This document shows, piece after piece, positions 3,770 to 22,819 of a stretch of 23,798 bases of DNA. Numbering within the stretch: the first letter of the stretch is position 1; every line of letters begins with the position of its first letter. This stretch comes from a virus. The translations under genes were made by a program, and so were the position numbers. The stretch spans positions 1-23,798 of the IMG/VR virus record IMGVR_UViG_3300047550_004468. One strand, 5' to 3'. The notes below the pieces were generated by a model. The model did not search any database. It saw only the letters and a list, made by a program, of their open reading frames with translations, and had not been told where the DNA came from.

Positions 3770-4500
3770 CAAGGCCCATCGAGATGATTGGCACCATGAT
3801 CCTCAATGGTGCCCATGATTTACTGAAACAATTTGCAGCAATTGACTACCCAGTCAATCGTTATTTCATTCTCGATAACTCCATGGGGCGTGACCCAGAG
3901 GTACGCGAGGCGATTGACAAGGTCAAAAACGGTAACGAATACGTTAAGAGCGTTGAAGTTGTCCACAATTACATGAACGTTGGATTCTCTGGATCTATCA
4001 ATCAAATCATTAAACAAAATATTGATTGCCCCTACTGGTGTGTTTTATCGGTTGACTGGCATCCAGCCCCTGGTGAACTCAAGAAGCTTGCCAAGCGTTT
4101 GGAAAATCCGTTCATTGGCATCTTGTGCGACGAAACCCAGAACGGCTACTCCTCCATGGTATTTACACCTGAACTTCTTTACGAGGTTGGCTACCTAGAC
4201 GAAAATTTCTTCCCTGCCTATTACGAAGACAATGACCACCGTTACCGCATGAAGCAAGTTGGTATCGAATGGGAGTACTTGCCATTGAAATATCAACATG
4301 CTGTTAGTGCCACAATTAAAAGAGATCCTGCAATTTATGCAAGGAACCAAATGACGTTCAAGGAGAACGGTCGTTATTACGTTGAGAAGTGGGGCGGTCT
4401 CCCTGGACAGGAGAAGTACACAACTCCGTTCGACATGGATCTACCCCTTGACTATTGGTTGTATGATCCAGTTCGTAGCCAAAGGCAGCGATGGATTTAA
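3766..4500 (+). CDS. Glycosyltransferase, GT2-like (GT-A fold)
   Basis: A 244-residue protein resembling family 2 glycosyltransferases. It has an N-terminal nucleotide-binding half with a beta-strand and DNS motif near FILDNSMG, a metal-site-like region LSVDWHPAPGEL where a DxD would sit, and a C-terminal acceptor motif GYLDENFFPAYYEDNDHRYR, which matches the conserved xDExFFxxxEDxD pattern. It would transfer a sugar from a nucleotide donor onto a glycan or protein in the host cytoplasm. The start is set by the ATGA overlap with the gene before it. Its position directly before nucleotide-sugar enzymes suggests that it uses the sugar they make. The lack of a textbook DxD leaves metal use uncertain. 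Confidence 0.8.
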   Translation: MTRPIEMIGTMILNGAHDLLKQFAAIDYPVNRYFILDNSMGRDPEVREAIDKVKNGNEYVKSVEVVHNYMNVGFSGSINQIIKQNIDCPYWCVLSVDWHPAPGELKKLAKRLENPFIGILCDETQNGYSSMVFTPELLYEVGYLDENFFPAYYEDNDHRYRMKQVGIEWEYLPLKYQHAVSATIKRDPAIYARNQMTFKENGRYYVEKWGGLPGQEKYTTPFDMDLPLDYWLYDPVRSQRQRWI

Positions 4501-5357
4501 GTCTGTACGGAAGCACTGGAATTATCGGCAGTTACTTCAACGGTTTATTTCCTAGCTTCTGCATACCCCGATCCCAACTGGAACCCGACACAGAAAACGT
4601 TTTGTACTTAATTAGTACAACAGACAACCAAACGTTTCGAGAGGATTGTCATATTGATATCGATACCAATTTGGTGCAGCTCATGCGGCGTCTTGAAGCC
4701 TGCCGCAAAGCACGCGTCGAAGTGTTTAATTTTGTAAGCAGCTGGTTTGTATATGGACCAGACCACACCTATCCCAACGAACAAGCAATCTGCAATCCGA
4801 ATGGTTTTTATTCCACTACCAAGTACGCAGCGGAGAAACTAGTCAAGGAGTATTGCACGACCTTTGGTATTGGCTATCGCATCTTGCGTCTTGGCAATGT
4901 GTACGGAGGCTCAGACTCTGGATCCAACAAAAGAAATGCTTTGCATTATCTCGTGAAACGCATACGCGAGGGCAGAGATGTCACCGTTCACATCAATGTT
5001 TCCCGCGACTTTATTCACATTCTTGACACCTGTCGTGCACTGCGACTCCTTTGCGAACAGGGAGATGTCAATACGATTTACAACGTTGGCACGGGAGTAT
5101 CCACACGTTTAGGCGACGCGCTTGACGAAGCTAAAAGCTTGTTGCGTTCTAGGGTATGTGTACTAAGAGCCAACGTTCCACAGAGTTACGACCAAGCTGT
5201 GCGCTTTGGTCTAGATTGTGGCAAACTAAAGTCTCACGGCTTTCAACCTCTACTTTCTTTTAAGGAAGGACTGCACGACCTATGTCTAAGTCAAAAGTTC
5301 TGTACTCCGGACCCTACTTTGATGGAACAGAAGTTGAAGCAGCAATCGCCTGTTTGA
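4491..5357 (+). CDS. NAD-dependent sugar epimerase/dehydratase (extended SDR)
   Basis: A 288-residue extended short-chain dehydrogenase/reductase. It shows the nucleotide-binding GSTGIIG (residues 7-13), an active-site Ser region VSSW (82-85) and the catalytic pair in YSTTK (Y107, K111). The segment RLGNVYG is typical of sugar-nucleotide epimerases. It could be a C4 reductase or epimerase finishing a deoxysugar made by its neighbours; the substrate cannot be read from sequence. AAAGG lies six bases before ATG 4491, and the gene overlaps the glycosyltransferase by 10 bases. Its 3' end overlaps the next gene by 76 bases, an unusually long overlap that suggests tail extension. The Cys-rich C-terminal tail may be poorly conserved. 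Confidence 0.83.
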   Translation: MDLSLYGSTGIIGSYFNGLFPSFCIPRSQLEPDTENVLYLISTTDNQTFREDCHIDIDTNLVQLMRRLEACRKARVEVFNFVSSWFVYGPDHTYPNEQAICNPNGFYSTTKYAAEKLVKEYCTTFGIGYRILRLGNVYGGSDSGSNKRNALHYLVKRIREGRDVTVHINVSRDFIHILDTCRALRLLCEQGDVNTIYNVGTGVSTRLGDALDEAKSLLRSRVCVLRANVPQSYDQAVRFGLDCGKLKSHGFQPLLSFKEGLHDLCLSQKFCTPDPTLMEQKLKQQSPV

Positions 5358-6499
5358 AAGAAGGAGCCTGGTACCCTGCAGGCAAAGAGGTTGACAAATT
5401 TGAAAAGCAGTTTTCCAAGAAGTTTGGCTTTGATTCGTCGCTGATGGTCAACAGCGGCAGCTCAGCCAATCTTGTGATGATCGCTGCGCTTAAGAAGTAT
5501 TTTGAATGGCCTGACGGCGCAGAGATTATTGTCAGTGTTGTTGGGTTCCCCACAACTGTTAATCCCATCCTCCAAAATAATCTTGTCCCCGTCTTTGTAG
5601 ACATCACCTGGGACGATTTGAATTGGGATCTGAACCATGTTGAAGCAGCAATCACCAACAAAACCGTTGCGGTTTTTAGTAGTCCTGTTTTGGGCAACAG
5701 CTATGACCTTGATCGTCTCCTTGATATTTGTGAACGGCACCAACTGATGTACATCGCAGACAACTGCGATTCACTTGGTTCCAAATGGAATGGCATGTAT
5801 TTAACTGAGAATGCAGTAGCTGCCTCCTGTTCTTTCTACCCTGCACACCACATCACCACGATGGAAGGTGGCATGGTGTCCTCTGGCATCCCAGAGATTG
5901 TCACCCTTGCACGTCAGTTTGCCTGGTGGGGACGTGACTGTTATTGCGTTGGTGCATGCAACCAGTTGATCAACGGTAGTTGCGGCAAACGTTTTGATAA
6001 ATGGCTTGATGGTTACGACGGCATCGTTGATCACAAGTATGTGTTCAGCCAAATTGGTTATAACCTAAAACCAATTGATATGCAGGGAGCTGTTGGTCAA
6101 GTACAGCTAGCTAAATTTGACGAGATCCACAGCAAGCGTCGCTTCAATTACGAACAGATCCGTTCCATCCTGGAACGCCTGTCTCCCAAAGTACGTGTCG
6201 TTGGGGAGTACCCAGAGGCTGAAACGTCTTGGTTTGGTGTACCCATTATCTGCTCTACCGAAGAAACCAAAACAAATCTTCAACTCCACCTGGAGCAAAA
6301 CGGCATTCAAACCCGTAATTACTTTGCGGGTAATTTGTTGCTGCACCCTGCGTACAAGCACCTTGGTAACGCAAAGGATTACCCCAATGCCTACCGTGTG
6401 TTGAAGTATGTGTTCTTTATGGGCACGGCACCGACCATTACGCACGAGGATCTTGCTTACATCTTTGAAACTGTTAGCGAGTATTCCCTACCCAAGTAG
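5282..6499 (+). CDS. rfbH: RfbH/DdhC-type sugar 3-dehydrase (PMP/Fe-S, DegT family)
   Basis: A 405-residue DegT/DnrJ/EryC1-fold enzyme in which the usual PLP-binding Lys is replaced by His: SFYPAHHITTMEGG around 184-197 (H189, H190). This is the hallmark of 3-dehydrases (E1/RfbH, ColD), which use PMP to remove the C3 hydroxyl of a 4-keto-6-deoxy nucleotide sugar. Cysteines C162, C220 and C222 are spaced C-x57-C-x-C, matching the [2Fe-2S] pattern known for CDP-sugar E1. The last Cys, in CGKRF (C234), is 11 residues later rather than 7, a four-residue insertion. The Fe-S pattern favours RfbH over ColD. E1 needs a reductase partner, which is not seen here. AAGGAAGGA lies about 10 bases before the ATG. 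Confidence 0.85.
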   Translation: MSKSKVLYSGPYFDGTEVEAAIACLKEGAWYPAGKEVDKFEKQFSKKFGFDSSLMVNSGSSANLVMIAALKKYFEWPDGAEIIVSVVGFPTTVNPILQNNLVPVFVDITWDDLNWDLNHVEAAITNKTVAVFSSPVLGNSYDLDRLLDICERHQLMYIADNCDSLGSKWNGMYLTENAVAASCSFYPAHHITTMEGGMVSSGIPEIVTLARQFAWWGRDCYCVGACNQLINGSCGKRFDKWLDGYDGIVDHKYVFSQIGYNLKPIDMQGAVGQVQLAKFDEIHSKRRFNYEQIRSILERLSPKVRVVGEYPEAETSWFGVPIICSTEETKTNLQLHLEQNGIQTRNYFAGNLLLHPAYKHLGNAKDYPNAYRVLKYVFFMGTAPTITHEDLAYIFETVSEYSLPK

Positions 6500-6531
6500 G
6501 AAGTAAACCGTATAGGTCTCCTGGAGTACCC

Positions 6532-6574
6532 GTGCCAAACTATTGAAAGACTGAAAAGTATCAATGTTTGGCAC
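6532..6574 (+). other. Perfect 9-bp stem-loop in intergenic leader
   Basis: GTGCCAAAC (6532-6540) pairs perfectly with GTTTGGCAC (6566-6574). Inside, ATTGA pairs with TCAAT, leaving a single-base bulge and a loop of about 14 bases. No T run follows, so it is not a standard terminator. It lies between the rfbH stop and the next gene's ATG at 6609 and could be an mRNA stabilising or processing structure or an operator. A TATACT box follows at about 6582-6587. Confidence 0.55.
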
Positions 6575-6608
6575 AACCGTTATACTTAGGGGACCACGAA
6601 GCTCTGAA

Positions 6609-6815
6609 ATGGCGCTGTCCAACCAAGTTAAAGAGTCATTAGATCAAGCAACCGCATGCCTGCGCGATGCACTTGCGTTTGCTGCACGCGCTGAGCATCC
6701 TATTACCATCAATACCATCTCCGATATTCTCATGCGTCTTGAGTCTTTAGAATGCATGGACGAGTTGATGGAGAAGTTTGAGCGTGCCCAAAACCGATCG
6801 ACAGAAGGCCGCTGA
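6609..6815 (+). CDS. Small helical hypothetical protein (68 aa)
   Basis: ATG 6609 (MALSNQVKES) is preferred over an upstream in-frame ATG at 6564 that lies inside the stem-loop. The product is predicted to be all helical, with a heptad-like pattern (VKESLDQATACLRDAL, then LMRLESLECMDELMEKFERA), and may form a coiled-coil bundle. It resembles the short helical proteins of unknown role often seen in cyanophage genomes. Its last codons overlap the rfbC start, so the two are probably cotranslated. Function is unknown. Confidence 0.65.
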   Translation: MALSNQVKESLDQATACLRDALAFAARAEHPITINTISDILMRLESLECMDELMEKFERAQNRSTEGR

Positions 6816-7437
6816 CGAGAGGCGGATCAACAACTACAGGAAACAGCTGTACACTGTTTGGCCAGAAATTCCTAACCCCTATGCGCCTCGCATGAAGGTC
6901 ACTCCGCTTGCTCTGGAGGGAGTCAAGCTAATTTTCGTTGATCGGTACGAAGATTCTCGCGGATGCTTTAGCGATCACTGGCACATCGAGAAATTCAAAG
7001 AGATTACCGATGGTTTGGAGTTTAAGCAAGACTGCTACGTAACGTCTTATCCCAAGGTGGTGCGTGGCCTTCACTACCAAGTTGGCGAGAAAGAACAAGG
7101 GAAGTTAGTGCGTTGCGTCCGTGGTCGCATCCAGGATGTGATTGTAGATTTGCGTAAATCTTCCAAGACGTTTGGCCAGTGGATCAACGTCTACCTCTCT
7201 GGTGATCACCACCAGATGGTTTGGATACCACCAGGGTTTGCTCATGGTTATTCTACCTTGGACAACGATGCGGATGTTTTGTACAAAATGACAGAAGTCC
7301 ATAGTCCTGACCACGAACGCACCTTGCTCTGGAACGATCCGGACCTTAGTATTAAATGGGATGCGCCCAAGAAACCAATCCTTTCTTTCAAAGATTCTCA
7401 AGGAACTCTTTTGAAGGAATGCGACTTATTTGACTAA
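6784..7437 (+). CDS. rfbC: dTDP-4-dehydrorhamnose 3,5-epimerase
   Basis: A cupin-fold epimerase that inverts C3 and C5 of dTDP-4-keto-6-deoxyglucose. Diagnostic motifs are DSRGCFSDHW, VVRGLHYQ (containing the catalytic His), KLVRCVRGRIQDVIVDLR and IPPGFAHGYS. GTG 6784 is chosen because GGAGAAG sits about seven bases upstream; TTG 6778 is an alternative. ATG 6892 (MKVTPLALEG) matches where most family members begin, so the first 36 residues are an N-terminal extension that may or may not be translated. The gene overlaps the small upstream gene by 32 bases and precedes rfbB, its pathway partner. Confidence 0.92.
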   Translation: MPKTDRQKAADERRINNYRKQLYTVWPEIPNPYAPRMKVTPLALEGVKLIFVDRYEDSRGCFSDHWHIEKFKEITDGLEFKQDCYVTSYPKVVRGLHYQVGEKEQGKLVRCVRGRIQDVIVDLRKSSKTFGQWINVYLSGDHHQMVWIPPGFAHGYSTLDNDADVLYKMTEVHSPDHERTLLWNDPDLSIKWDAPKKPILSFKDSQGTLLKECDLFD

Positions 7438-7446
7438 TATGTATAC

Positions 7447-8418
7447 ATGGAAAAAATTCTTGTTACCGGCGGTGCCGGATTTATTGGTCGTCATTTGATC
7501 AAGCGTTTGCTTGATACAACTGATGCGTTTGTATATAACGTTGACAAGCTTGGTTATGCAAGCAACGCACAAGAATTATTTAACCATCCAGAAGCACGTT
7601 GGCGCTACCAGTTACTGCCATACAACCTGGCCAATGAAGGCGTAATTAAAGAGTGGGTGTTATCTATTCAACCATCTAAGATCTTCCATTTAGCTGCCGA
7701 AAGTCACGTCGATAACTCCATTCGATCACCACACGAATTTATCTACAGCAATATCATCGGCACCTTTAATTTACTTGAGGCATGCCGCCTTGGTATTGAA
7801 GAAGACTTTAAGTTTCTGCACGTCAGTACCGACGAGGTATTTGGTTCATTGCATCCGGATGACACAGAGACTTACTTTGTAGAGACTACGCCTTACAACC
7901 CAAGGTCTCCATACTCAGCCAGCAAGGCAGCTAGTGACCACCTGGTAATGGCCTGGCACAACACCTATAAGTTTCCTGCAGTCATGACGAACTGCAGCAA
8001 TAACTATGGCCCTGGTCAGCATCCAGAAAAGTTAATCCCGATGACGATCACCAATGCGTTGGCAGACAAGCCGATCACGATTCATGGAGAAGGAAAAAAC
8101 GTACGTGATTGGTTACATGTAGAAGATCATATTGATGCTTTACTTTTGGTAATGAAAGAAGGATGGATTGGTCAGCAATATTGTATTGGCGGCGATGGAG
8201 AGCGTACCAACGTAGATGTTGTTTATACTATTTGCAATATTTTGGATGAGCTTAGGCCATCACATAAGCCTCATGCTCAGTTGATTAAACATGTAACAGA
8301 TCGACCGGGCAATGATTTGAAGTATGCAATTAACCCAAGCAAGATTCGAAAGCTTGGCTGGAGCGCACAACGCAACTTCGAAGACGGTATTAGAGAATTG
8401 ATTAAGGGTTACTTATAA
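7447..8418 (+). CDS. rfbB: dTDP-glucose 4,6-dehydratase
   Basis: A 323-residue extended SDR with every key motif of RmlB/RfbB: TGGAGFIG (7-14) for NAD, HLAAESHVD, STDEVFG (127-133) with the catalytic Asp-Glu pair, YSASK (Y156, K160), NCSNNYGPGQHPEKLIP, and VRDWLHVEDH. It converts dTDP-glucose to dTDP-4-keto-6-deoxyglucose, the substrate of the upstream RfbC. Length is slightly below the usual 340-360. No dTDP-glucose synthesis gene (rfbA) or final reductase (rfbD) is identifiable beside it, so the host presumably supplies dTDP-glucose. The gap to rfbC is nine bases and no Shine-Dalgarno sequence is evident. Confidence 0.96.
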   Translation: MEKILVTGGAGFIGRHLIKRLLDTTDAFVYNVDKLGYASNAQELFNHPEARWRYQLLPYNLANEGVIKEWVLSIQPSKIFHLAAESHVDNSIRSPHEFIYSNIIGTFNLLEACRLGIEEDFKFLHVSTDEVFGSLHPDDTETYFVETTPYNPRSPYSASKAASDHLVMAWHNTYKFPAVMTNCSNNYGPGQHPEKLIPMTITNALADKPITIHGEGKNVRDWLHVEDHIDALLLVMKEGWIGQQYCIGGDGERTNVDVVYTICNILDELRPSHKPHAQLIKHVTDRPGNDLKYAINPSKIRKLGWSAQRNFEDGIRELIKGYL

Positions 8419-10004: not shown

Positions 10005-10078
10005 CGAGAATTAGCGCAGTTTGGTAGCGCACCTGTTTTGGGAGCAGGGGGCCGCAGGTTCAAATCCTGCATTCTCGA
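10005..10078 (+). tRNA. tRNA-Pro (anticodon TGG)
   Basis: A complete 74-base cloverleaf: acceptor CGAGAAT pairs perfectly with ATTCTCG, D arm GCGC...GCGC, anticodon stem CCTGT/GCAGG with loop TTTGGGA giving anticodon TGG (10039-10041), T arm GCAGG-TTCAAAT-CCTGC, and discriminator A at 10078. CCA is not encoded. A TGG anticodon reads CCA and, by wobble, other Pro codons. It is the only tRNA seen in the window. A tRNA end can also be a phage integration target, but no integrase is visible here. Confidence 0.95.
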
Positions 10079-15237: not shown

Positions 15238-15351
15238 TCAGTTGAATTGAGTTTGAAACTTGTTAACCATATAGGTCAGCAGCATACCTGCCGCTGCCCA
15301 AAGAAGATCTTTTAACACCGGAAGTACGGTGGCAAACAAGGATTCGAACAT
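15238..15351 (-). CDS. Tiny membrane protein (37 aa) behind a conserved leader element
   Basis: A 37-residue frame with one hydrophobic stretch (residues about 5-28: LFATVLPVLKDLLWAAAGML) and a polar C terminus. It starts at ATG 15351, exactly 24 bases after the TTAAACTG part of the repeated leader element and directly after AACACC, as in another copy of that element. The constant spacing supports it as a real gene. A holin-like or small regulatory membrane role is possible, but there is no family evidence. Confidence 0.6.
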   Translation of the reverse strand: MFESLFATVLPVLKDLLWAAAGMLLTYMVNKFQTQFN

Positions 15352-15375
15352 GGTGTTAAGTAGAGGAAGGTTGGT

Positions 15376-15400
15376 CAGTTTAACGTCTTGACCAGGACGG
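15376..15400 (-). promoter_or_regulatory. Repeated leader element, copy 1
   Basis: On the minus strand: CGTC, loop CTGGTCAA, GACG, then TTAAACTG, with 24 bases to ATG 15351. Here the inverted repeat is 4 bp because the flanking base pair is lost. A second CCGTCCCGG lies upstream at about 15412-15420. It follows the stop of the 15423-15593 gene by 22 bases. Confidence 0.8.
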
Positions 15401-15422
15401 TCCACCCTCTACCGGGACGGAG

Positions 15423-15593
15423 TTAGTCTACCAGCTTTTCTAGGATAAAAGATTTTTGACCATCTTCACCAAGGTCATTCCACCATTGAAGATCAGGATC
15501 CTTTTCATCCCAGTCAATGCGGATGGTGCCAGTCCCATCCTCTTCTTCTACATAATCAATCTGCATCTTTTCTATTGAGCTTAAGAAAGTCAT
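15423..15593 (-). CDS. Small acidic protein (56 aa)
   Basis: A 56-residue acidic protein beginning MTFLSSIEKMQIDY, with a Glu/Asp run and the core DWDEKDPDLQWWNDLGEDGQ. The Trp and acidic pattern resembles short conserved proteins of unknown role in cyanophage early regions. ATG 15593 overlaps the upstream TGA (ATGA); an internal ATG at the tenth codon is an alternative start. Its stop precedes the first copy of the leader element. Confidence 0.7.
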   Translation of the reverse strand: MTFLSSIEKMQIDYVEEEDGTGTIRIDWDEKDPDLQWWNDLGEDGQKSFILEKLVD

Positions 15594-16534
15594 TGGTTCT
15601 TTACTGCAGCTTTGAGTTGTGGTAGTGCAGTACCAGGGAATGGTACGTATCCAGCTTCCAGCATATTAAAGAAAAGATCCCAAGCCTGGTGCTGAGTAAA
15701 GATTTCTTTAGGCTTGTAGGTACGCCAGTGGCTTAGTGGAGCTTGTGCTCCCGACTTGGTATGTAGCAATACAAAACGCCCGTCACTGATGTGATCAGAG
15801 GGAGGCGCGTACCACCAGGCCACGCACTTATCAGGTGTACCACTGGAGCTAGCATTGCGTGCTTCTGTGCGCTTGCACAGTAGTTCCCTGTACTTGTTGA
15901 ACCAAGTCAGATGGATGCACCATGGTCTAAATCCCTGGATCTCTTCTTGGAAAGAAGATAGGTCACGGAGCTGACGTTGAAAGGACCCACACGAGCAGCT
16001 AGGTTCGCCAAACATCGCGTGTTGTTCTTGGCCATCGTCCAGTTCAGAGTCCATATCAAGCGGCCGATCCGCAAGCCGCAACCCGTCCGGTGCAACCAGA
16101 TAGCCAAGGTCCGTCTGGTCAGACTGAAGAATGGCTTTGAGTTTGTTTGGATCTGACAAGTGAATAAACTTGTCTGCCCAGTGGGCTTGTAGTTTTGCAT
16201 TAGAGGTCAGGTGTCCGAGTGCGTGTGAGTAGTACCAGCCCTTAAACATAACGTAAGCATTGTTGTGCCATACGCTAGGGCCACGATAATTAGGGCCAAG
16301 ATACGAAAAGAAATCTTTGAGACGATGAGTGTAACCCTGGAACGCTGACTTGATTAGCTCCCGTGCGTAAGTCTGCTCACTACCATCAGTACGCACCACA
16401 GTGCAATGATCATCTCGCAAATAAATGCCGGAGATCTCAGTGTCATCAAAGTCCGGGAAAGCGCGGCGGATGTTAGACCGAGAATAAATAAGAGCTTGCG
16501 CAGGGTTGAGTTCGGTTTGGAATTGAATTGACAT
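15590..16534 (-). CDS. SWIM-type zinc-finger protein (314 aa)
   Basis: A 314-residue protein with a SWIM-like motif: C180-S-C182 followed 23 residues later by C206-I-H208 (CSCG ... PWCIH), matching CxC-x(n)-CxH. SWIM domains bind DNA or protein and occur in ATPases, recombination factors and plant transposases. The N-terminal part (residues 1-130) has an alpha/beta look with PDFDDTEISGIY and an aromatic segment (VMFKGWYYSHALGH). The C-terminal part is rich in Trp and His (VAWWYAPPSDH, SHWRTYKP). The rest matches no family I know. It lies in the leftward operon behind a small membrane protein. Confidence 0.65.
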   Translation of the reverse strand: MSIQFQTELNPAQALIYSRSNIRRAFPDFDDTEISGIYLRDDHCTVVRTDGSEQTYARELIKSAFQGYTHRLKDFFSYLGPNYRGPSVWHNNAYVMFKGWYYSHALGHLTSNAKLQAHWADKFIHLSDPNKLKAILQSDQTDLGYLVAPDGLRLADRPLDMDSELDDGQEQHAMFGEPSCSCGSFQRQLRDLSSFQEEIQGFRPWCIHLTWFNKYRELLCKRTEARNASSSGTPDKCVAWWYAPPSDHISDGRFVLLHTKSGAQAPLSHWRTYKPKEIFTQHQAWDLFFNMLEAGYVPFPGTALPQLKAAVKNQ

Positions 16535-16552
16535 GACTTGAATCGAGTGGAA

Positions 16553-16756
16553 TTAAAACGGGCAGTCCTGGTGCACATTGGTACCAGTCTCTTGATCCTG
16601 GGACTTGACATGGCGATAAGCAAGTCTTCCCATACGGTACGCTCCATAGGCAACCGCAGCCCAGCATACCGGATTACCGATACAAAAAGCAAGGGCACCT
16701 GCTACGGCTGCAGTTGCACCACTTGTTTTGATGGCAGCTTTTTCTTCTGGCTTCAT
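16553..16756 (-). CDS. Small membrane protein with Ala/Gly-rich helices (67 aa)
   Basis: A 67-residue protein with a lysine-rich start (MKPEEKAAIK), then an Ala/Gly-rich hydrophobic hairpin (residues about 14-47: TAAVAGALAFCIGN and VCWAAVAYGAYRMG), a basic turn and a polar tail. The pattern looks like a short two-helix membrane insert or glycine-zipper peptide. ATG 16756 is preceded by AACACCA; a weak TCAAACTTCC 23 bases upstream may be a degenerate relative of the TTAAACTGCC leader. It heads the leftward operon, divergent from the 16812 gene. Confidence 0.6.
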   Translation of the reverse strand: MKPEEKAAIKTSGATAAVAGALAFCIGNPVCWAAVAYGAYRMGRLAYRHVKSQDQETGTNVHQDCPF

Positions 16757-16811
16757 TGGTGTTTCTTAATACATTTGGAAGTTTGATTGTGATCTTTACT
16801 AAGGAAGTAAA

Positions 16812-17099
16812 ATGATCTGTAACAACTTAATACACATGGAAGAAATCAAGTACGTACCATTGGACAAATTTCAAATCGAACCAACGCTTGATGATAAGTT
16901 TTGGTTAGAGAAAATTAAACGTTCTATTCAAGACTGTAATTCGGTAAGTACATTAAAAGAAATGGCGACCTTGCTTGCGCAGATCGCCACTCAACGTCAA
17001 GGTGTGATTAGGGGATTGGTTCAAGATATGTTCATCTTTAATAATGTTTCCATTAATCAAGATGACCTGGCCAATCCTGACGTTAAATCACAGGAGTGA
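16812..17099 (+). CDS. Small hypothetical protein (95 aa), isolated plus-strand gene
   Basis: ATG 16812 has AAGGAAG a few bases upstream, one of the clearest ribosome sites in the window; an internal ATG at 16836 (MEEIKYVPLDKFQIEP) is also possible. The product is soluble and mainly helical (FWLEKIKRSIQDC, then LKEMATLLAQIATQRQGVIRGLVQDMFIF). No family. It stands alone on the plus strand between leftward operons, and its 3' end overlaps the convergent HNH gene by 12 bases. Confidence 0.65.
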   Translation: MICNNLIHMEEIKYVPLDKFQIEPTLDDKFWLEKIKRSIQDCNSVSTLKEMATLLAQIATQRQGVIRGLVQDMFIFNNVSINQDDLANPDVKSQE

Positions 17100-17552
17100 T
17101 TTGACTAAATAACAAAACCAATACTTTCTAACCGTTGGTGTTGAGCAACCAAGAGTTGTTGCAATCTTGGCGTAACTTAAACCAGTTTTTCTCAACTGAA
17201 TTATTTTTTCAATTGTTTCCTGGTTCAACGCCATAGGGTGTTTTCCTGGTTTCCAACGTTGGCGTTTATGCATATCTTTATGGTTATCGGCTTGAGTTCC
17301 GAGCAATAAATGCAACGGATTACAACAGGCTGGATTATCACAAGTATGCCGAACAACCACTTTAGGCGTTAAGCAAACACCATAATGGTGTTCATAACTC
17401 CATCGATGAGCAAGGATAGATTTTTGGTTTCTTTTGGGATAACCATAACCATCTTTGTGCCAACGCTTACCAACGTAATTCCAACAGGAGGAAAGACCCC
17501 CAAAGGGGTCAATCATCTGTAGTAATTCAATAGAAGTATTTGCTTTGGTCAT
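17088..17552 (-). CDS. HNH homing-type endonuclease with C-terminal helix-turn-helix
   Basis: A 154-residue protein. The segment VVRHTCDNPACCNPLHLLLG (about 66-85) is the HNH_3-type active site, with H69, N78 and H81 and Cys residues around it, followed by TQADNHKDM. The N-terminal region (CWNYVGKRWHKDGYGY) is the strand-rich part common to these nucleases. The C-terminal helix-turn-helix (QETIEKIIQLRKTGLSYAKI, then TLGCSTPTVRKYW) likely reads the target. It is a mobile-type nuclease that has settled downstream of the DUF5895-like gene, sharing one base (TAATG), so it is translated with that operon. Confidence 0.9.
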   Translation of the reverse strand: MTKANTSIELLQMIDPFGGLSSCWNYVGKRWHKDGYGYPKRNQKSILAHRWSYEHHYGVCLTPKVVVRHTCDNPACCNPLHLLLGTQADNHKDMHKRQRWKPGKHPMALNQETIEKIIQLRKTGLSYAKIATTLGCSTPTVRKYWFCYLVKSLL

Positions 17553-18571
17553 TAAAACAAATCAGCATCTTCTCCTGTCATCTCATCGCGTGCAGGCAAT
17601 GCCTTCACATCAACAGGATCCATGGTGCGTGACACGGGCAGGATCTCAACACCTGCCTTGATTCCATATGCACCACCAAGCTTCTCAGCATCCTGCTTAG
17701 CATGCTGATTGATGTAGTCGTTAAACAATTCCTGGAACCTCCAGGTTGATTCACGATCTTCATCAGGAATGCTAAGACGATTCAATGATTCGATTGCATC
17801 TTCCTGAGTTCCATAATCAGGGATGTCAAAAGATTCAATTGCGCAGATCTCAACGTTGTTGGCTCCACGCATCTCGTTGGCAAGTACCGGAGTAAATACG
17901 GTAGTAGCGTAGAACTTTTCATTGAAGTTCAAGGGGACTTCAGCGTCTAGTGCTTTGCTCAAACACTTAGACATTTCCTTCTCATACATACGTACCTTCT
18001 CAGATACGTCAGTGCCATTGAGACCCTTCAAGGTAAGAACCATGGGGATCTTATGAGCACGCTTGTTGTCTTCTGTGAGAATATAAACAAGGTACTTGGT
18101 ACGAACACTGTACTTACGCTTGTACATCTCGCCTTTGCTATTAGCCAGGTCCGATGCAACCTTGTCGTTCTCAAACATCTGCTTGACATCTGGATCATCA
18201 AATGTCCCGATCGTCTGGCGCATACCGGTGGTTTCTTCAACCATCAGTGGAGAACGCAACAAGATTTGCAAACGAGGCTGAACAAAATTAAGGCCAGCTT
18301 CAATAGAAGTGTTTGGTGCCATACCAAAAGTTTGCTTGTAGTCCCAGATCACTGAGCCAGTAGCAAACTGATCTTCGGTTGCTGTCCATCCGCAGGTGTC
18401 TAGATCAGACTTGCGGACAAACCAACCACGTACCTTAGATTTGTTTAGAGGTTGGATGGTAACCAGATTTTGGTAACCAGATACAAATTCTTTGGACTGA
18501 AACATCCGGAAGGAGTCGAGTCCACGTGTAGCAAGTGCAGAAGTTTTCTTGGTGGTCATGGAAGCAGTCAT
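17552..18571 (-). CDS. DUF5895-like phage protein (about 339 aa)
   Basis: A large soluble protein resembling DUF5895 proteins of cyanobacteria and their phages (GWFVRKSDLDTCGW, then FVQPRLQILLRSPLMVEE), which have no assigned role. The neighbourhood (SSB, PolA) suggests a DNA replication, repair or recombination accessory. ATG 18571 (MTASMTTKKTS) is preferred because it lies exactly 24 bases after the leader element, as in the other copies. ATG 18625 (MARPEHDV) would make the element coding; it overlaps the upstream stop (TGATG) and cannot be excluded. The family call is tentative. Confidence 0.72.
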   Translation of the reverse strand: MTASMTTKKTSALATRGLDSFRMFQSKEFVSGYQNLVTIQPLNKSKVRGWFVRKSDLDTCGWTATEDQFATGSVIWDYKQTFGMAPNTSIEAGLNFVQPRLQILLRSPLMVEETTGMRQTIGTFDDPDVKQMFENDKVASDLANSKGEMYKRKYSVRTKYLVYILTEDNKRAHKIPMVLTLKGLNGTDVSEKVRMYEKEMSKCLSKALDAEVPLNFNEKFYATTVFTPVLANEMRGANNVEICAIESFDIPDYGTQEDAIESLNRLSIPDEDRESTWRFQELFNDYINQHAKQDAEKLGGAYGIKAGVEILPVSRTMDPVDVKALPARDEMTGEDADLF

Positions 18572-18595
18572 GGTTTGTTCATAGTCAATGGTAAG

Positions 18596-18620
18596 CAGTT
18601 TAACGTCATGCTCAGGACGT
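18596..18620 (-). promoter_or_regulatory. Repeated leader element, copy 2
   Basis: On the minus strand: ACGTC, loop CTGAGCAT, GACGT, then TTAAACTG, with 24 bases to ATG 18571. The stem is 5 bp. The copy starts five bases after the stop of the upstream gene and would be coding if ATG 18625 were used. Confidence 0.8.
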
Positions 18621-18624
18621 GCCA

Positions 18625-18861
18625 TCAGGCTAACTCATCCTGCTGGAGAGGCAAACCAAGACGACGCCTTTCTTCACATTGGAAATACTCATCAACAATC
18701 TCGCTCATTGCTGAGTGGATTGAGTCGTCATGGTAGCTGCATGCACGCATGAAGTTAACAAACTCGCGGATAATTCCTTCCGCAAGAACATTACGAAAAC
18801 AAAAGATAACTTCGTTGTCGCCATCTTCATGCATGAAGATGTAACGATTGTGGTCAGCCAT
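18625..18861 (-). CDS. Small hypothetical protein (78 aa)
   Basis: A 78-residue protein with a strand-like start (RYIFMHEDGDNEVIFCF), then a helical, acidic middle (LAEGIIREFVNFMRAC, then SAMSEIVDEYFQCEERRR) and an acidic tail. No family is recognised. It shares one base with the SSB stop (TGATG) and precedes the leader element, which fits cotranscription with SSB. Function is unknown. Confidence 0.7.
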   Translation of the reverse strand: MADHNRYIFMHEDGDNEVIFCFRNVLAEGIIREFVNFMRACSYHDDSIHSAMSEIVDEYFQCEERRRLGLPLQQDELA

Positions 18862-19667
18862 CAGAAGGGAGCCTCTTCGAGATCAGGAGCAGAACCGTAT
18901 TGGCCAGGAAGATCAGGTAGACCACTGGTGACATGCCAAGGATCGGTGTCTTCAGCAGTCTTACCACCCCACAAGGGAGCTACCGTATCAGATGCCACAG
19001 TAGTGGAAGCCTTAACAGTATTTCCACCTTCAAGTGTGTTACTACCTTTAGGTGCCAGAGTCATTGATACAAGTTGGATCTTGCTCAGACTCTTCTTTTC
19101 TTTGGACTCTTTATCAACCCAAGAGTCAGTCACAAGACGCCCCTGGATCGTAAGCCCAGTTCCCTTCCGTGTGAAGTTAACAAGAAGCTCTGCGTTATTC
19201 AGTGCATCTTTACTGGAGTTAATTGCGTAGAAGTTAAAAAGATCAGCTTGATTGCGTCCAGTATTAACCGAGAGGGTTTGATTGCAAATCATCAAACCAT
19301 CTGCGGTTGTCTTGAACGCACGCGTATCATTTTGATCAATGTCTTTTACGCAGCGTCCACAGAGGATGACTGTGTTGAGGATAGGGAATGCTTCTGTAAC
19401 CGGAGCAACCACTCCTCCATGTAACGAATACGCTTTTGATTCGAGATCGTAACGTAGCTTTGCGCCGTGAATGTAGACCAAGCTTCCTTTGGTAAGTGTT
19501 CGGAAGCGGTCTGCTGCTTTGCCATAGGAGTTGTATTCAAGAACCGTTGGTGCTTTGTTGCCAACAGGAGGAAGAGTAACAATGCAACGCAGCACTGTTG
19601 ATGTTGCGCTGATAAAAGCTTCCCGAGGATTCTCGGCAAGTTGTGCGCAAACAAATGATTGGTTCAT
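18861..19667 (-). CDS. ssb: Single-stranded DNA-binding protein with acidic PF tail
   Basis: A 268-residue protein with two OB-like halves. Residues about 20-90 contain TSTVLRCIVTLPP and GSLVYIHGAKLRYD. Residues about 95-210 contain FPILNTVILCGRCVKDI, NFYAIN, LLVNFTRKG, LTIQGRLVTDSW and LSKIQLVSMTL, close to the bacterial SSB strand order. The C terminus is disordered and acidic and ends DLEEAPF, like the partner-binding PF tip of SSB. It would coat ssDNA at the phage fork and recruit partners. It is longer than bacterial SSB (about 180) because of the apparent duplication. ATG 19667 lies 24 bases after a leader element and has no Shine-Dalgarno sequence. Confidence 0.82.
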   Translation of the reverse strand: MNQSFVCAQLAENPREAFISATSTVLRCIVTLPPVGNKAPTVLEYNSYGKAADRFRTLTKGSLVYIHGAKLRYDLESKAYSLHGGVVAPVTEAFPILNTVILCGRCVKDIDQNDTRAFKTTADGLMICNQTLSVNTGRNQADLFNFYAINSSKDALNNAELLVNFTRKGTGLTIQGRLVTDSWVDKESKEKKSLSKIQLVSMTLAPKGSNTLEGGNTVKASTTVASDTVAPLWGGKTAEDTDPWHVTSGLPDLPGQYGSAPDLEEAPF

Positions 19668-19691
19668 GATCTTGAAAGTTTGGTGTTAAGG

Positions 19692-19716
19692 CAGTTTAAC
19701 GTCATACCTGGGACGT
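19692..19716 (-). promoter_or_regulatory. Repeated leader element, copy 3
   Basis: On the minus strand: ACGTC, loop CCAGGTAT, GACGT, then TTAAACTG, with 24 bases to the ssb ATG at 19667. It starts four bases after the stop of the 19721-19906 gene. The stem is a perfect 5 bp. Confidence 0.85.
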
Positions 19717-19720
19717 GGAA

Positions 19721-19906
19721 TTACTTAGTAGAGTTAATAAGTTTATACAAACCATTCTCTAAATAAGCCCACATTAAAGTAATCATTCCAGCTTGGAACC
19801 AAGTAAAGTCAAATGCATATTTAAGACCCAAGGAAATCAAAAAGTAAAACGCTAGGATACCAAGTGCTTTACCTATGACTTCGGCCACGGCTGTTTCTTT
19901 GTGCAT
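19721..19906 (-). CDS. Small two-span membrane protein (61 aa)
   Basis: A 61-residue hydrophobic protein with two likely membrane helices (KALGILAFYFLISLGLKYAF and MITLMWAYLENGLY) joined by a short aromatic link. It starts four bases after the PolA stop and ends four bases before leader copy 3, so it is cotranscribed with PolA. A holin or membrane-anchoring role is possible, but no family match is seen. Confidence 0.7.
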   Translation of the reverse strand: MHKETAVAEVIGKALGILAFYFLISLGLKYAFDFTWFQAGMITLMWAYLENGLYKLINSTK

Positions 19907-19910
19907 GAGA

Positions 19911-21773
19911 TTAATGCGTCTCGCTCCAGTCGAATCCTACTCGAGAGTCCCCTTCGATCAAGCAACGGAATCCAAAGAATTCCTGAGCTTGCGGAAAGGC
20001 CAGCATAGCTTGCTCTCGTATGGCTTCTGTGTGCTGGGGCTGACAAGCAATTTGTATTTCGTCATGCACCATCAGGAGTTGTTCCCAATCCTTGCCGTGA
20101 ACTAAGCCAAGATTCTTTTCAATGTTGTTGTGTGTAAAGACAACAACTTGTTTCATGAGAATGGCACCGGCTGATTGCAGCAGAACATTCAATCCTTTGA
20201 AGGCTGATCGACAATGAAGAATACGTTTATCCAAACCAATCAAATAGTTTCTATTATTGATTGTTGTATTGATTTCATCTTTAAGTTTCTTAAGTGCAGG
20301 TACACCATTCATGAATGAATTAATTGCAGTTCTTCCTAGTTCACGTAGAACTAATTCATCTTTTTCATTCGGATCAATAATGGTACCAGCTTTGACAGCA
20401 CCACATCCATACAACATTCCATACAGCAAACGCTTACTAATGTCCCTGGTAGGCACACCAAATTGTTCTTGGTTGTATGAGTGGATATCAACCTCTGGAT
20501 TAACAACAAGAGAAGCGTATTCTCCTTTGTCCCAGATAGCTAGATACCCAGCAAGGCAGCGTAGTTCCAATGCTTTTGCGTCAATACCAATAAGATCCCA
20601 ACCGTCAGGAGCATGAAACAAACTACGGCATTCCTTACCGTAAGGTGAGTAGCTTGCTGGAACCTGGCCCATGTTGGGATAACGATGTGCACAACGCCCA
20701 GTAATACAGCCGTTAGTAACAACATCACCGTGCATACGGCCAGTATTGTTATTAACAAGCTTGAGCCAAGAGTTGTTCCCATCAGCAATTTGCCCAAGGC
20801 GTTTCTTGAGTAGCATGTATTCTGCCAGAGGTTTTGCCTCTGGATATGGAAGCTTCTCTAGTACCTCGTCATCAACAACTGGATTTCCTTTCTTAGTTGT
20901 TTTCTCTGGTTCCCATCCGTACTTTTGTTTAAGTCGATCAGCAATCTGCTGACGAGATCCAGGATTGAACACTTCGTAGCTAACTTTTTCAAAAGGAACT
21001 CCCTTGACGTAACCACGCTTGGCGTTGTTGACCTTGGGTGTAAACCAAGAGCTGTGTATGATCGGAGGAAAAATTTCTTTTAGCTGTGCTTCAAGTTGTT
21101 TTTCCTTTGCTCGTAGATCATCCACGAAATCAAGAGCTGCATCCACATCAAAAGGAACACCTGCTCTAATTTGTTTGTTAATCGCCAACGCAAAGTCATG
21201 CTCAAGTTTGATAGCAGACTGCGGATAGTTCTGGCTTTGAATGAGTTGAAATAGTTTAGTGGTGACCTTAACGTCTTGGATGCAATACCGCAGCATCTCC
21301 TCAGAGTATTCTGAGAAGTCTTTGAACGTGATCTTATGATCGGCCAAGCGCCATCCCCAGGCCTTAAGTGATGCGGCACCACGGTTCTTCGGTGGAACCT
21401 GCGGATATTGTTCGACATCAAGATCATAGAGAACCTCCTTGGGCCAGATCAGCCTGGTACAGATGAGTGTGTCAATGATGCGCGCATCAGTACTAAACGA
21501 AAACAATTTGTCTAGCACTGGCAGGTCATAGAAAATTATGTTGTGGCCAATGAGAACATCAGCGGTTGCCAGATGAGCAAGAGCATTAGCAGTATCACTA
21601 GGCCCATAGCTAAAAGTTTGTTGTTTGTTGATGTCATAAATGACGGTACAAAACAAAGTTGTTGCCTGGTCATATAACCCGTTGGTTTCCAAATCAAAAA
21701 CCAACCAAGACTCATTTGCGGAATCTGGCTTCATCTTGAATTGAGAGTTCTTTACTGGCAAGGTCTTGGTCAT
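19911..21773 (-). CDS. polA: DNA polymerase, family A (T7-like) with 3'-5' exonuclease
   Basis: A 620-residue replicative polymerase. Exonuclease motifs are FDLETNG (D27, E29), GHNIIFYDLP (N78, D83) and YCIQD (Y163, D167). Polymerase motif A is GIDAKALELRCLAG (D398), very like T7 gp5. Motif B is RDISKRLLYGMLYG (R443, K447, Y451). Motif C is MVHDE (H570, D571, E572). No 5'-3' nuclease domain is present. It is shorter than T7 gp5 (704 aa), so the thioredoxin-binding loop may be missing. Tyr at the position of E. coli Phe762 is found in lytic phages such as T7. ATG 21773 is used; ATG 21734 is possible. It overlaps the upstream gene by 62 bases. Confidence 0.96.
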   Translation of the reverse strand: MTKTLPVKNSQFKMKPDSANESWLVFDLETNGLYDQATTLFCTVIYDINKQQTFSYGPSDTANALAHLATADVLIGHNIIFYDLPVLDKLFSFSTDARIIDTLICTRLIWPKEVLYDLDVEQYPQVPPKNRGAASLKAWGWRLADHKITFKDFSEYSEEMLRYCIQDVKVTTKLFQLIQSQNYPQSAIKLEHDFALAINKQIRAGVPFDVDAALDFVDDLRAKEKQLEAQLKEIFPPIIHSSWFTPKVNNAKRGYVKGVPFEKVSYEVFNPGSRQQIADRLKQKYGWEPEKTTKKGNPVVDDEVLEKLPYPEAKPLAEYMLLKKRLGQIADGNNSWLKLVNNNTGRMHGDVVTNGCITGRCAHRYPNMGQVPASYSPYGKECRSLFHAPDGWDLIGIDAKALELRCLAGYLAIWDKGEYASLVVNPEVDIHSYNQEQFGVPTRDISKRLLYGMLYGCGAVKAGTIIDPNEKDELVLRELGRTAINSFMNGVPALKKLKDEINTTINNRNYLIGLDKRILHCRSAFKGLNVLLQSAGAILMKQVVVFTHNNIEKNLGLVHGKDWEQLLMVHDEIQIACQPQHTEAIREQAMLAFPQAQEFFGFRCLIEGDSRVGFDWSETH

Positions 21774-21945
21774 TACTGTTAATCCAGCTCAGTATCTGCT
21801 GAGCTCCGGCTCGATATGGATGAGAAAATATTCTATTCAAAGCCACATCAGAATTAACAGCAATCAATTCAAATGAATTGGATTCTTGATTTGCGGTTAG
21901 CGCATATGGCAAACCGTTTTGCCAACAGGCAATGACGTAACTCAT
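21712..21945 (-). CDS. Small hypothetical protein (77 aa)
   Basis: A 77-residue protein beginning MSYVIACWQNGLPYALT. It looks like a small alpha/beta domain with strand-like starts (FELIAVNS) and a helix (GAQQILSWI). No family is recognised. Its 3' end overlaps polA by 62 bases (23 if the internal polA ATG is used). The ATG is directly preceded by a large nested inverted repeat, suggesting control of translation or transcription of this gene and polA. Confidence 0.65.
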   Translation of the reverse strand: MSYVIACWQNGLPYALTANQESNSFELIAVNSDVALNRIFSHPYRAGAQQILSWINSNDQDLASKELSIQDEARFRK

Positions 21946-21991
21946 GGGTCAAACAAAATACGGATGCATACTATCCGATTTCATTTGACCC
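21946..21991 (-). repeat. Nested inverted repeat at the 5' end of the polA operon
   Basis: GGGTCAAA (21946-21953) pairs with TTTGACCC (21984-21991), and inside this CGGAT (21961-21965) pairs with ATCCG (21973-21977), leaving a seven-base loop. The structure directly abuts ATG 21945 on the minus strand. It has no T run. It may act as an operator, an RNA structure limiting ribosome access, or a replication-linked site. Confidence 0.7.
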
Positions 21992-22007
21992 GCAAGGTTC
22001 TACAGAT

Positions 22008-22769
22008 TTATTTCTTGTTTGATTTGCTGTAGCCTACAAAACCACCTTCCTTCTTGCGTTGGCTTAAGGCTTTACTTGCATCTGATCCAGCCCTCTGGGA
22101 CCCATGGACCAGAAGTGCAAACGGCTTATCACCAAGGCAGTGACTATCATCGTGATCGATCTCCAGCCCACGGTCCGCAGCTTCCTGTTCTGTGTAAACC
22201 ACGTAAGCAATACGCTTAAATACGTCAATGTGCTTGGGGATCAAGTAGTCGAGAGTGCCCCCGAAGGATGCAGTGAGATAGAAGTTGGGTGGGATGATGT
22301 CCTTGAGGTTCAGCCACATGCCAAGAGATTTGGTGTAGGCATAAAACTTTTGGTTGGGCCGCTCTTGAGCCACCATCATCCAAGCCCGCATGTAGTTCTC
22401 AGTCCAGAAGTCACCTGACTCATGAACACGCACCAGTTTCTTTGGGGGGTGCATGAGGAGTGACATGTCGATCAGATCACGCAGCAACAGGGCCTGGTTC
22501 CCATTCATGTGAATGGTTTCACGCAGTAGATCCCAGTTGTGCCAACGAGCTTCTCGTACGGTAGGACGAGTCTCTGCCATGGCAGCAAAGCAGCGATACT
22601 CATCTGCTTGTGTGCCAGTGAGCTGAGGTAGGTCACGGATCTCACCACTAACACGATCAGCCATTGTCTTGCAGACACCAGCGTGTGGGCATGAGTAGCC
22701 CGCTGGGATGTTGAAGATCAAACGATCACGCAGCTTGGCGTTGCCTTTGGAAAACTTGAGAAGTTTCAT
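22008..22769 (-). CDS. Gp88-like phage protein (253 aa)
   Basis: ATG 22769 (MKLLKFSKGNAKL) is preferred over an in-frame ATG at 22808, because it lies 25 bases after a leader element and the longer start would be read through the element. The protein has LIFNIPAGYSCPHAGVC with C27 and C33, then RVHESGDFWTENYMRAW and FYAYTKSL, a layout I associate with the phage Gp88 family of unknown function. The Cys pair and conserved His/Glu/Asp suggest a metal site. C-terminal residues are Lys/Gly-rich. The family name should be confirmed by profile search. Confidence 0.7.
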   Translation of the reverse strand: MKLLKFSKGNAKLRDRLIFNIPAGYSCPHAGVCKTMADRVSGEIRDLPQLTGTQADEYRCFAAMAETRPTVREARWHNWDLLRETIHMNGNQALLLRDLIDMSLLMHPPKKLVRVHESGDFWTENYMRAWMMVAQERPNQKFYAYTKSLGMWLNLKDIIPPNFYLTASFGGTLDYLIPKHIDVFKRIAYVVYTEQEAADRGLEIDHDDSHCLGDKPFALLVHGSQRAGSDASKALSQRKKEGGFVGYSKSNKK

Positions 22770-22794
22770 GGTGTTGAATTGAGTTGAGTGCAGG

Positions 22795-22819
22795 CAGTTT
22801 AACGTCATACCCAGGACGG
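22795..22819 (-). promoter_or_regulatory. Repeated leader element, copy 4
   Basis: On the minus strand: CGTC, loop CTGGGTAT, GACG, then TTAAACTGCC, with 25 bases to ATG 22769 and AACACC just before the ATG. Upstream, between this and the previous gene's stop at 22857, are AT-rich AATAAATATAAG and TTATGTAT boxes that could be promoter -10 sequences. Confidence 0.82.

Follow-up and report, generated by a model that had tools for sequence, protein, structure and literature searches.

H-type RNA pseudoknots consist of two interleaved helices (S1 and S2) joined by loops (L1 to L3), and those of the luteovirus frameshift type, e.g. that of beet western yellows virus (BWYV), are about 28 nucleotides (nt) in size, contain a C in L1 and an A-rich L3, and lie about 5 nt from the decoded codon. 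In the messenger RNA (mRNA) of gene 32 of phages T4 and T2, the leader of this single-stranded DNA-binding protein (SSB) gene contains a pseudoknot operator, and an unstructured stretch separates it from the start codon (PMC3014915). Mobile elements carry another small pseudoknot, STAXI (RF01728), the name of which refers in part to single-stranded DNA-binding protein genes nearby (PMC2864571). Phage hammerhead ribozymes were proposed by Perreault et al. 2011 (PMC3088659) to cut long transcripts into gene-length mRNAs. The present analysis concerns an element that occurs four times on the minus strand of the window, i.e. the whole 23,798-nt stretch (a 23.8-kb virus record, IMGVR_UViG_3300047550_004468), a relative of which is the freshwater Synechococcus phage S-EIV1. 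By base-pair covariation the element was shown to be an H-type RNA pseudoknot of about 28 nt, predicted to form on the sense strand between the RNA units of phage transcripts.

The closest functional precedent is T4 gene 32, with which the element shares an H-type pseudoknot in an SSB leader and an unstructured spacer. However, the T4 knot is located 67 nt upstream, with an A+U-rich spacer that overlaps a ribosome binding site, whereas the knot described here ends 19-21 nt before the ATG and is not restricted to SSB, being found also with DUF5895, GP88, PcfJ-like, membrane-protein and scaffold genes, transfer RNAs (tRNAs) and hammerheads. STAXI, as a small pseudoknot associated with SSB genes, is the closest named motif, but it is known from Enterobacteriales as a tandem of two or three knots, in which UUCG loops are frequent, whereas the present knot is usually single, with AAAC in L3, and tandem copies are rare (a few, such as those of loci L175 and L462). 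The STAXI covariance model matched none of four element records at E up to 10, two records with tandem copies included. Unlike the BWYV-type knots, the element has a longer S2 and sits past stop codons without a consistent recoded frame. As the distance and the gene range differ from those of T4 gene 32 and the STAXI model test failed, the element is reported here as a putative new family of compact cis-acting pseudoknots, a member of neither the T4 gene 32 operator nor STAXI. No published description of it was found in the literature searched, in which few subscription papers were covered, so that a prior description is possible.

Pseudoknot structure and covariation

The motif CGTC-N8-GACGTTAAACTG was found exactly on the minus strand at 15376-15399, 18596-18619, 19692-19715 and 22795-22818, i.e. 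four times, compared with a chance expectation of 0.17 even at up to three mismatches, and no shuffled sequence reached four. These copies, as well as distances of 24, 24, 24 and 25 from CTG to ATG, had been listed in an earlier note made from the window sequence, and both were reproduced. The note had described a constant stem with differing loops. The stem is real and covaries, but the loops are not free, as each variable loop pairs with TG and the next four bases, past TTAAAC (TGGTCA/TGACCA, TGAGCA/TGCTTA, AGGTA/TGCCT and GGGTA/TGCCT, respectively), and the TG of TTAAACTG therefore belongs to the second helix. A degenerate relative, TCAAACTTCC, which the note had placed before the ATG at 16756, shows no pairing and does not form the structure.

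The pairing gives a compact knot with an S1 of 4 base pairs (bp), C as L1, an S2 of 6 bp, an L2 of 1 nt and NNAAAC as L3. Over the element as a whole, S1 is 3-5 bp, L1 is C (sometimes CTT), S2 is 4-6 bp, L2 is 1 nt and L3 is usually NNAAAC. Knot-free folding of the four window copies was weak, from -2.9 to -5.6 kcal/mol.

Most sets were drawn with patterns fixing part of the element, AAAC at the end of L3 in most of them, so that too much should not be read into the conservation of the fixed letters; this bias does not affect the SSB and DUF932 sets. Scan counts are lower bounds, and open reading frames (ORFs) were called mechanically. The first pattern scan of IMG/VR gave at least 120 stretches, and among the matches listed the loop and the bases past TTAAAC change jointly (TGGACA/TGTCCA, TGAGCA/TGCTCA, TGGTCA/TGACCA and TGGCCA/TGGCCA). 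With S1 fixed, the four Watson-Crick types are all represented at one S2 pair in a set of 77 distinct elements. In the converse test, where S1 was left free and S2 and AAAC were fixed, S1 was fully complementary in 168 of 200 elements of the largest set, compared with 35 of 200 with shuffled partners, and its forms included AATC/GATT, GGAC/GTCC, CACC/GGTG and many others. When L3 was left free in one pattern the AAAC ending was still dominant, and when L1 was left free in one pattern C was present in 46 of 48. In an alignment of 50 chosen elements, 97.8% of the cells pair and compensatory double changes occur at nine of the ten pairs, while slid controls gave at most 40%. The same covariation outcome was obtained with an orthologous set gathered via a protein, independently of the element. 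A structural descriptor gave 632 matches in 438 fetched loci (4 Mb) and 1 in the same sequences reversed, a ratio that measures specificity and not density, since many of the loci were fetched with element patterns.

These data bear on two other explanations. A DNA promoter for a phage or modified RNA polymerase, one of the options of the note, was suggested by repeated copies at a fixed spacing to the ATG, and the element site in Staphylococcus phage B166 is annotated as a promoter (by the annotator's BPROM run). Because of the compensatory base pairs in both helices the promoter was rejected and is now hardly credible: such changes in two interleaved helices, together with G-U pairs, point to RNA, and the sequence of S1 is free provided that pairing holds. 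A small-ligand riboswitch comparable in size to preQ1-I, with a binding pocket made up of the conserved C and AAAC, agrees with a compact knot with invariant unpaired bases and with the candidate riboswitches known in phages (PMC2864571), but is very improbable, as a single variable nucleotide in L2 and one base in L1 would leave little room for a ligand, the neighbouring genes share no pathway and no Rfam riboswitch matched. In the Rfam 15 search at gathering scores, no family (preQ1, SAM-II, SAM-V, pistol and others) overlapped the element in the window or in 20 further loci, and searches for weak matches in the window and two loci gave nothing convincing over the element. The Rfam families adjoining it are tRNA, hammerhead and DUF2800 RNA.

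Downstream genes in the phage group of the window

SSB orthologues were fetched through the protein alone, and the element sequence was present in 63 of 63 distinct loci. The 41 copies of standard geometry end 19-21 nt before the ATG, and the other 22 loci mostly have S2 shifted with a longer L1 (e.g. CTT-GAGGTA/TGCCTC), with S2 mismatches in two (L610 and L615). In all of the 45 loci where genes separate the DNA polymerase gene from SSB, the element stays with SSB, and in none does it follow the polymerase; in this phage group the element is therefore the leader of the downstream gene, and the link to that gene drawn by the note holds. A 3' tail of the DNA polymerase gene in cyanophages was ruled out by the same 45 non-adjacent loci.

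In the window, all the following features are on the minus strand and S1 is CGTC/GACG in each copy. Copy 4, CGTCCTGGGTATGACGTTAAACTGCCTG (22791..22818; S2 GGGTA/TGCCT, L3 TTAAAC), is followed by a 21-nt G-poor spacer and the ATG at 22769 (together 22769..22790) of a GP88-family gene (22008-22769; PF17338). Copy 3, CGTCCCAGGTATGACGTTAAACTGCCTT (19688..19715; S2 AGGTA/TGCCT), starts 5 nt past the stop of the ORF at 19721-19906 and precedes a 20-nt spacer and the ATG at 19667 (19667..19687) of the SSB gene (18861-19667; PF00436), the SSB orthologues sharing a spacing of 19-21 nt. Copy 2, CGTCCTGAGCATGACGTTAAACTGCTTA (18592..18619; S2 TGAGCA/TGCTTA), likewise starts 5 nt past the stop of an ORF (18625-18861), and a 20-nt spacer and the ATG at 18571 (18571..18591) of a DUF5895 gene (17552-18571; PF19247) come next. 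Copy 1, CGTCCTGGTCAAGACGTTAAACTGACCA (15372..15399; S2 TGGTCA/TGACCA, the six pairs of which are all Watson-Crick), is followed by a 20-nt spacer and the ATG at 15351 (15351..15371) of the gene for a putative membrane protein of 37 amino acids (aa) without a Pfam match (15238-15351), the S-EIV1 orthologue of which has its own element. The four downstream genes are those named in the note, as are the two copies close behind an upstream stop (ORFs ending at 18625 and 19721).

In S-EIV1 (locus L125), the element stands before the same four genes in conserved order (33603, 30514, 29170 and 25919), and one further copy lies near record position 43013. The note had let its claim depend on copies beyond the window and on a conserved spacing and stem; relatives do carry such copies, the spacing is kept and the stem covaries, so that the claim was not refuted. 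Cyanophage genomes carry several copies each, before SSB, DUF5895, GP88 and PcfJ-like genes.

The lack of a clear Shine-Dalgarno (SD) sequence, which the note had stressed, is not special, as an SD-like 4-mer was found for only 4 of the 26 other genes of the window and for 14 of the 75 genes of S-EIV1. What is special is the very low G content of the 20 nt before the four window ATGs (0.75 vs 3.54), and such G-poor leaders would suit a landing site kept free behind the knot. The element as a replacement of the SD sequence was rejected, SD being rare in these phages with or without it, and so was a start codon inside the element, as the loop triplet concerned alternates between ATG, AAG and ACG and is thus not conserved.

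A translational operator, to which a phage protein (e.g. SSB) would bind and spread over the unstructured leader, so that a replication regulon is repressed, would account for an element that tracks SSB whatever the upstream gene, for the several copies per cyanophage before SSB, DUF5895, GP88 and PcfJ-like genes and for the G-poor leader, and it has the pseudoknot and unstructured leader of T4 gp32 as a precedent (PMC3014915). It is nevertheless unlikely, because the same RNA occurs across phyla before tRNAs, hammerheads and scaffold or capsid genes, a phage-specific binder is not expected in such unrelated phages, and the sequence of S1 is nearly free. The regulator site and the ribosome-recruiting leader offered by the note suit the loci where a start codon follows, but not those where the element precedes tRNAs or hammerhead ribozymes.

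Elsewhere in the window, ORFs on the plus strand at 4491-8418 resemble nucleotide-sugar genes (epimerase/dehydratase-like, pyridoxal phosphate aminotransferase-like and 3,5-epimerase-like, all named by eye).

Position between RNA units

An upstream ORF was found in 458 cases, and the commonest distance from its stop to S1 is exactly 5 nt (143 cases); 6 nt is seen in 49 cases and less than 5 nt in 2. This sharp mode at 5-6 nt is strand-specific (221 sense vs 8 antisense). The 3' edge of the element lies about 19-29 nt (commonly about 20) before a start codon, 3-14 nt before a tRNA and a few nt before a hammerhead. The footprint of a terminating ribosome reaches about 5 nt past the stop, and that of an initiating 30S subunit begins about 19-21 nt before the ATG. 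Both edges of the element coincide with these ribosome edges, which suggests a design that keeps the knot folded during translation of both neighbours; both distances would be about the closest approach of a terminating and an initiating ribosome without the knot being unfolded.

A ribosome-directed element, which would block post-termination or read-through ribosomes from the next unit or would hold or recruit a ribosome for the next start, is also rather improbable. The distances fit the ribosome edges on both sides, and the resemblance to ribosome-resisting frameshift pseudoknots, with a C in L1 and an A-rich L3, counts for it. Recruitment fails for the tRNA and hammerhead contexts, though a plain ribosome barrier can explain them, and there is no consistent open frame past the stop and thus no read-through product. 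Recoding by read-through was rejected, as the frames close fast, with a median of 16 codons to the next stop and a 10th percentile of 1. No slippery heptamer was evident by eye before the window copies.

The next unit after viral copies was a start without SD (274), a start with SD (129), a tRNA (29) or a hammerhead (7), and nothing was recognised within 75 nt in 132. The tRNA starts 4-14 nt past S2 in 28 of the 29 viral copies concerned. In DUF932-tRNA-Asp loci, which were fetched via the DUF932 protein (PF06067), the tRNA lies 3-9 nt past S2, and the element was found by the descriptor in 52 of 57, the other five being recognisable variants; gene, knot and tRNA travel jointly and inseparably, and the single locus without the tRNA retains the knot. 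The window has a tRNA gene at 10005-10078 on the plus strand, apparently for proline (TGG by eye), and no pseudoknot precedes it.

When the element was scanned for together with a hammerhead core, eight distinct loci with both complete were found, plus two with a 7-nt L3 by inspection. On a Polynucleobacter contig (L444), two nearby genes each show a stop, a knot, a hammerhead and then a gene with its own ribosome site; the two hammerheads (7271-7325 and 7541-7595, minus strand) are each directly downstream of a knot of different sequence, and the two knots differ by compensatory changes. Both kinds of RNA lie between phage genes and the knot is directly upstream of some hammerheads, but it has no ribozyme core and mostly no hammerhead nearby. 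If hammerheads cut as proposed by Perreault et al. (PMC3088659), the knot would be the 3' end of each upstream piece; no upstream knot is mentioned in the passages of that paper drawn on here.

In Clostridia loci tested, the 5' end of DUF2800 RNA (RF02960) starts directly past S2, and this RNA was seen directly past the knot at L464, L493, L521, L456, L475 and the phage locus L208. DUF2800 RNA is a separate RNA of 158 nt, and the knot is outside its model and far more widespread; the two may form one larger unit, the 5' end of which is missed by the Rfam model.

The element was also found just upstream of scaffold and major capsid genes in Staphylococcus Phietavirus, Lactobacillus phiEF-1.1 and phage D6E (L530, L533, L534 and L538). 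In 22 bacterial loci (Desulfobacterota-type, Aminicenantes, Actinomycetes, Omnitrophota and KSB1; they include L448, L449, L453, L455, L480, L492, L498, L501, L509, L513, L515, L524 and L529), the UGA stop of an ORF of 20-23 aa with a strong SD falls inside the same pseudoknot, and an intrinsic terminator is often next. The consensus of these ORFs is like M(K/R)RFMIPRxAHCxxGCxxxS or MRWMFPHATHCxxCGSIRWS; they gave no NCBIfam match and by eye had no consistent downstream gene. Short ORF and knot are possibly a regulatory peptide-RNA unit.

Distribution

The element was found in hundreds of loci, in viruses with bacterial hosts of many phyla and in bacterial contigs. The hosts of the phages concerned include cyanobacteria, Staphylococcus, Lactobacillus, Arthrobacter, Mycobacterium, Paracoccus and Vibrio, and named carriers are S-EIV1, S-H35, Nostoc NMeng1, Mycobacterium Labelle, Paracoccus ParMal1, Lactobacillus phiEF-1.1, the thermophilic phage D6E and Vibrio D456. 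Arthrobacter Molivia carries the element with L3 longer by 1-2 bases, and Staphylococcus Phietavirus members have a variant with a 3-nt L1 and a 4-bp S2. No copy was found in phages 80alpha and PaP3 when these were scanned. A scan of species genomes gave at least 88 stretches, with at least three of the four S1 pairs in 87 of the 92 copies listed. Part of these matches are CRISPR-array spacers containing the element (L514 at three places, L525, L527 and L487, in Ignavibacteria-type and cyanobacterial contigs), as if CRISPR arrays had repeatedly sampled multi-copy phage elements.

Discussion

The favoured explanation, put forward tentatively and from position, is that the element is a cis-acting mRNA boundary element, folded between ribosomes, which insulates or protects the adjoining messages. 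The knot would most likely act at the cistron boundary as a mechanical barrier against exonucleolytic decay, and in some phages it would cap 3' ends produced by a ribozyme or by RNase P. For mRNAs in strong demand in the group of the window (SSB, DUF5895, GP88 and PcfJ-like), the knot would serve to insulate or stabilise the 5' side, with a short unstructured landing site for the ribosome left behind it. As judged from the positions, an exonuclease barrier or message-end insulation fits the start-codon, tRNA and ribozyme contexts together, whereas operator or recruitment models fit the start-codon context only.

Two points weigh against the proposed decay protection. In cyanophages the element tracks the downstream gene, yet the predicted hammerhead cut leaves the knot on the upstream RNA, and because of these opposite affiliations a single role as a 3' cap would not cover all contexts. 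At the 22 bacterial loci with a 20-23-aa ORF the element contains the stop, so that the knot would be unfolded by the ribosome terminating there, and the intrinsic terminator that is often next should already protect the 3' end.

The earlier reading of the window was in part borne out, the pseudoknot and its wide distribution having been missed. The element is a strongly covarying structured RNA of hundreds of phage loci and many host groups, often multi-copy, yet without an Rfam entry; with 28 nt and a knot it is easily overlooked, as it is invisible to pseudoknot-free covariance models. Still more tentatively, it might be a general punctuation mark of phage mRNA. One minimal knot design, in use across phyla, would then delimit cistrons and keep its fold with one ribosome terminating before it and another initiating behind it; jointly with hammerheads, tRNAs or host RNases it would set the ends of stable, gene-length mRNAs. 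If this is true, phages would possess an equivalent of the end-protecting elements found between cistrons, one that the RNA family library lacks. The element offers a natural compact part for gene insulation, and it makes directly testable the question of how phages set the levels and ends of single mRNAs within long operons.

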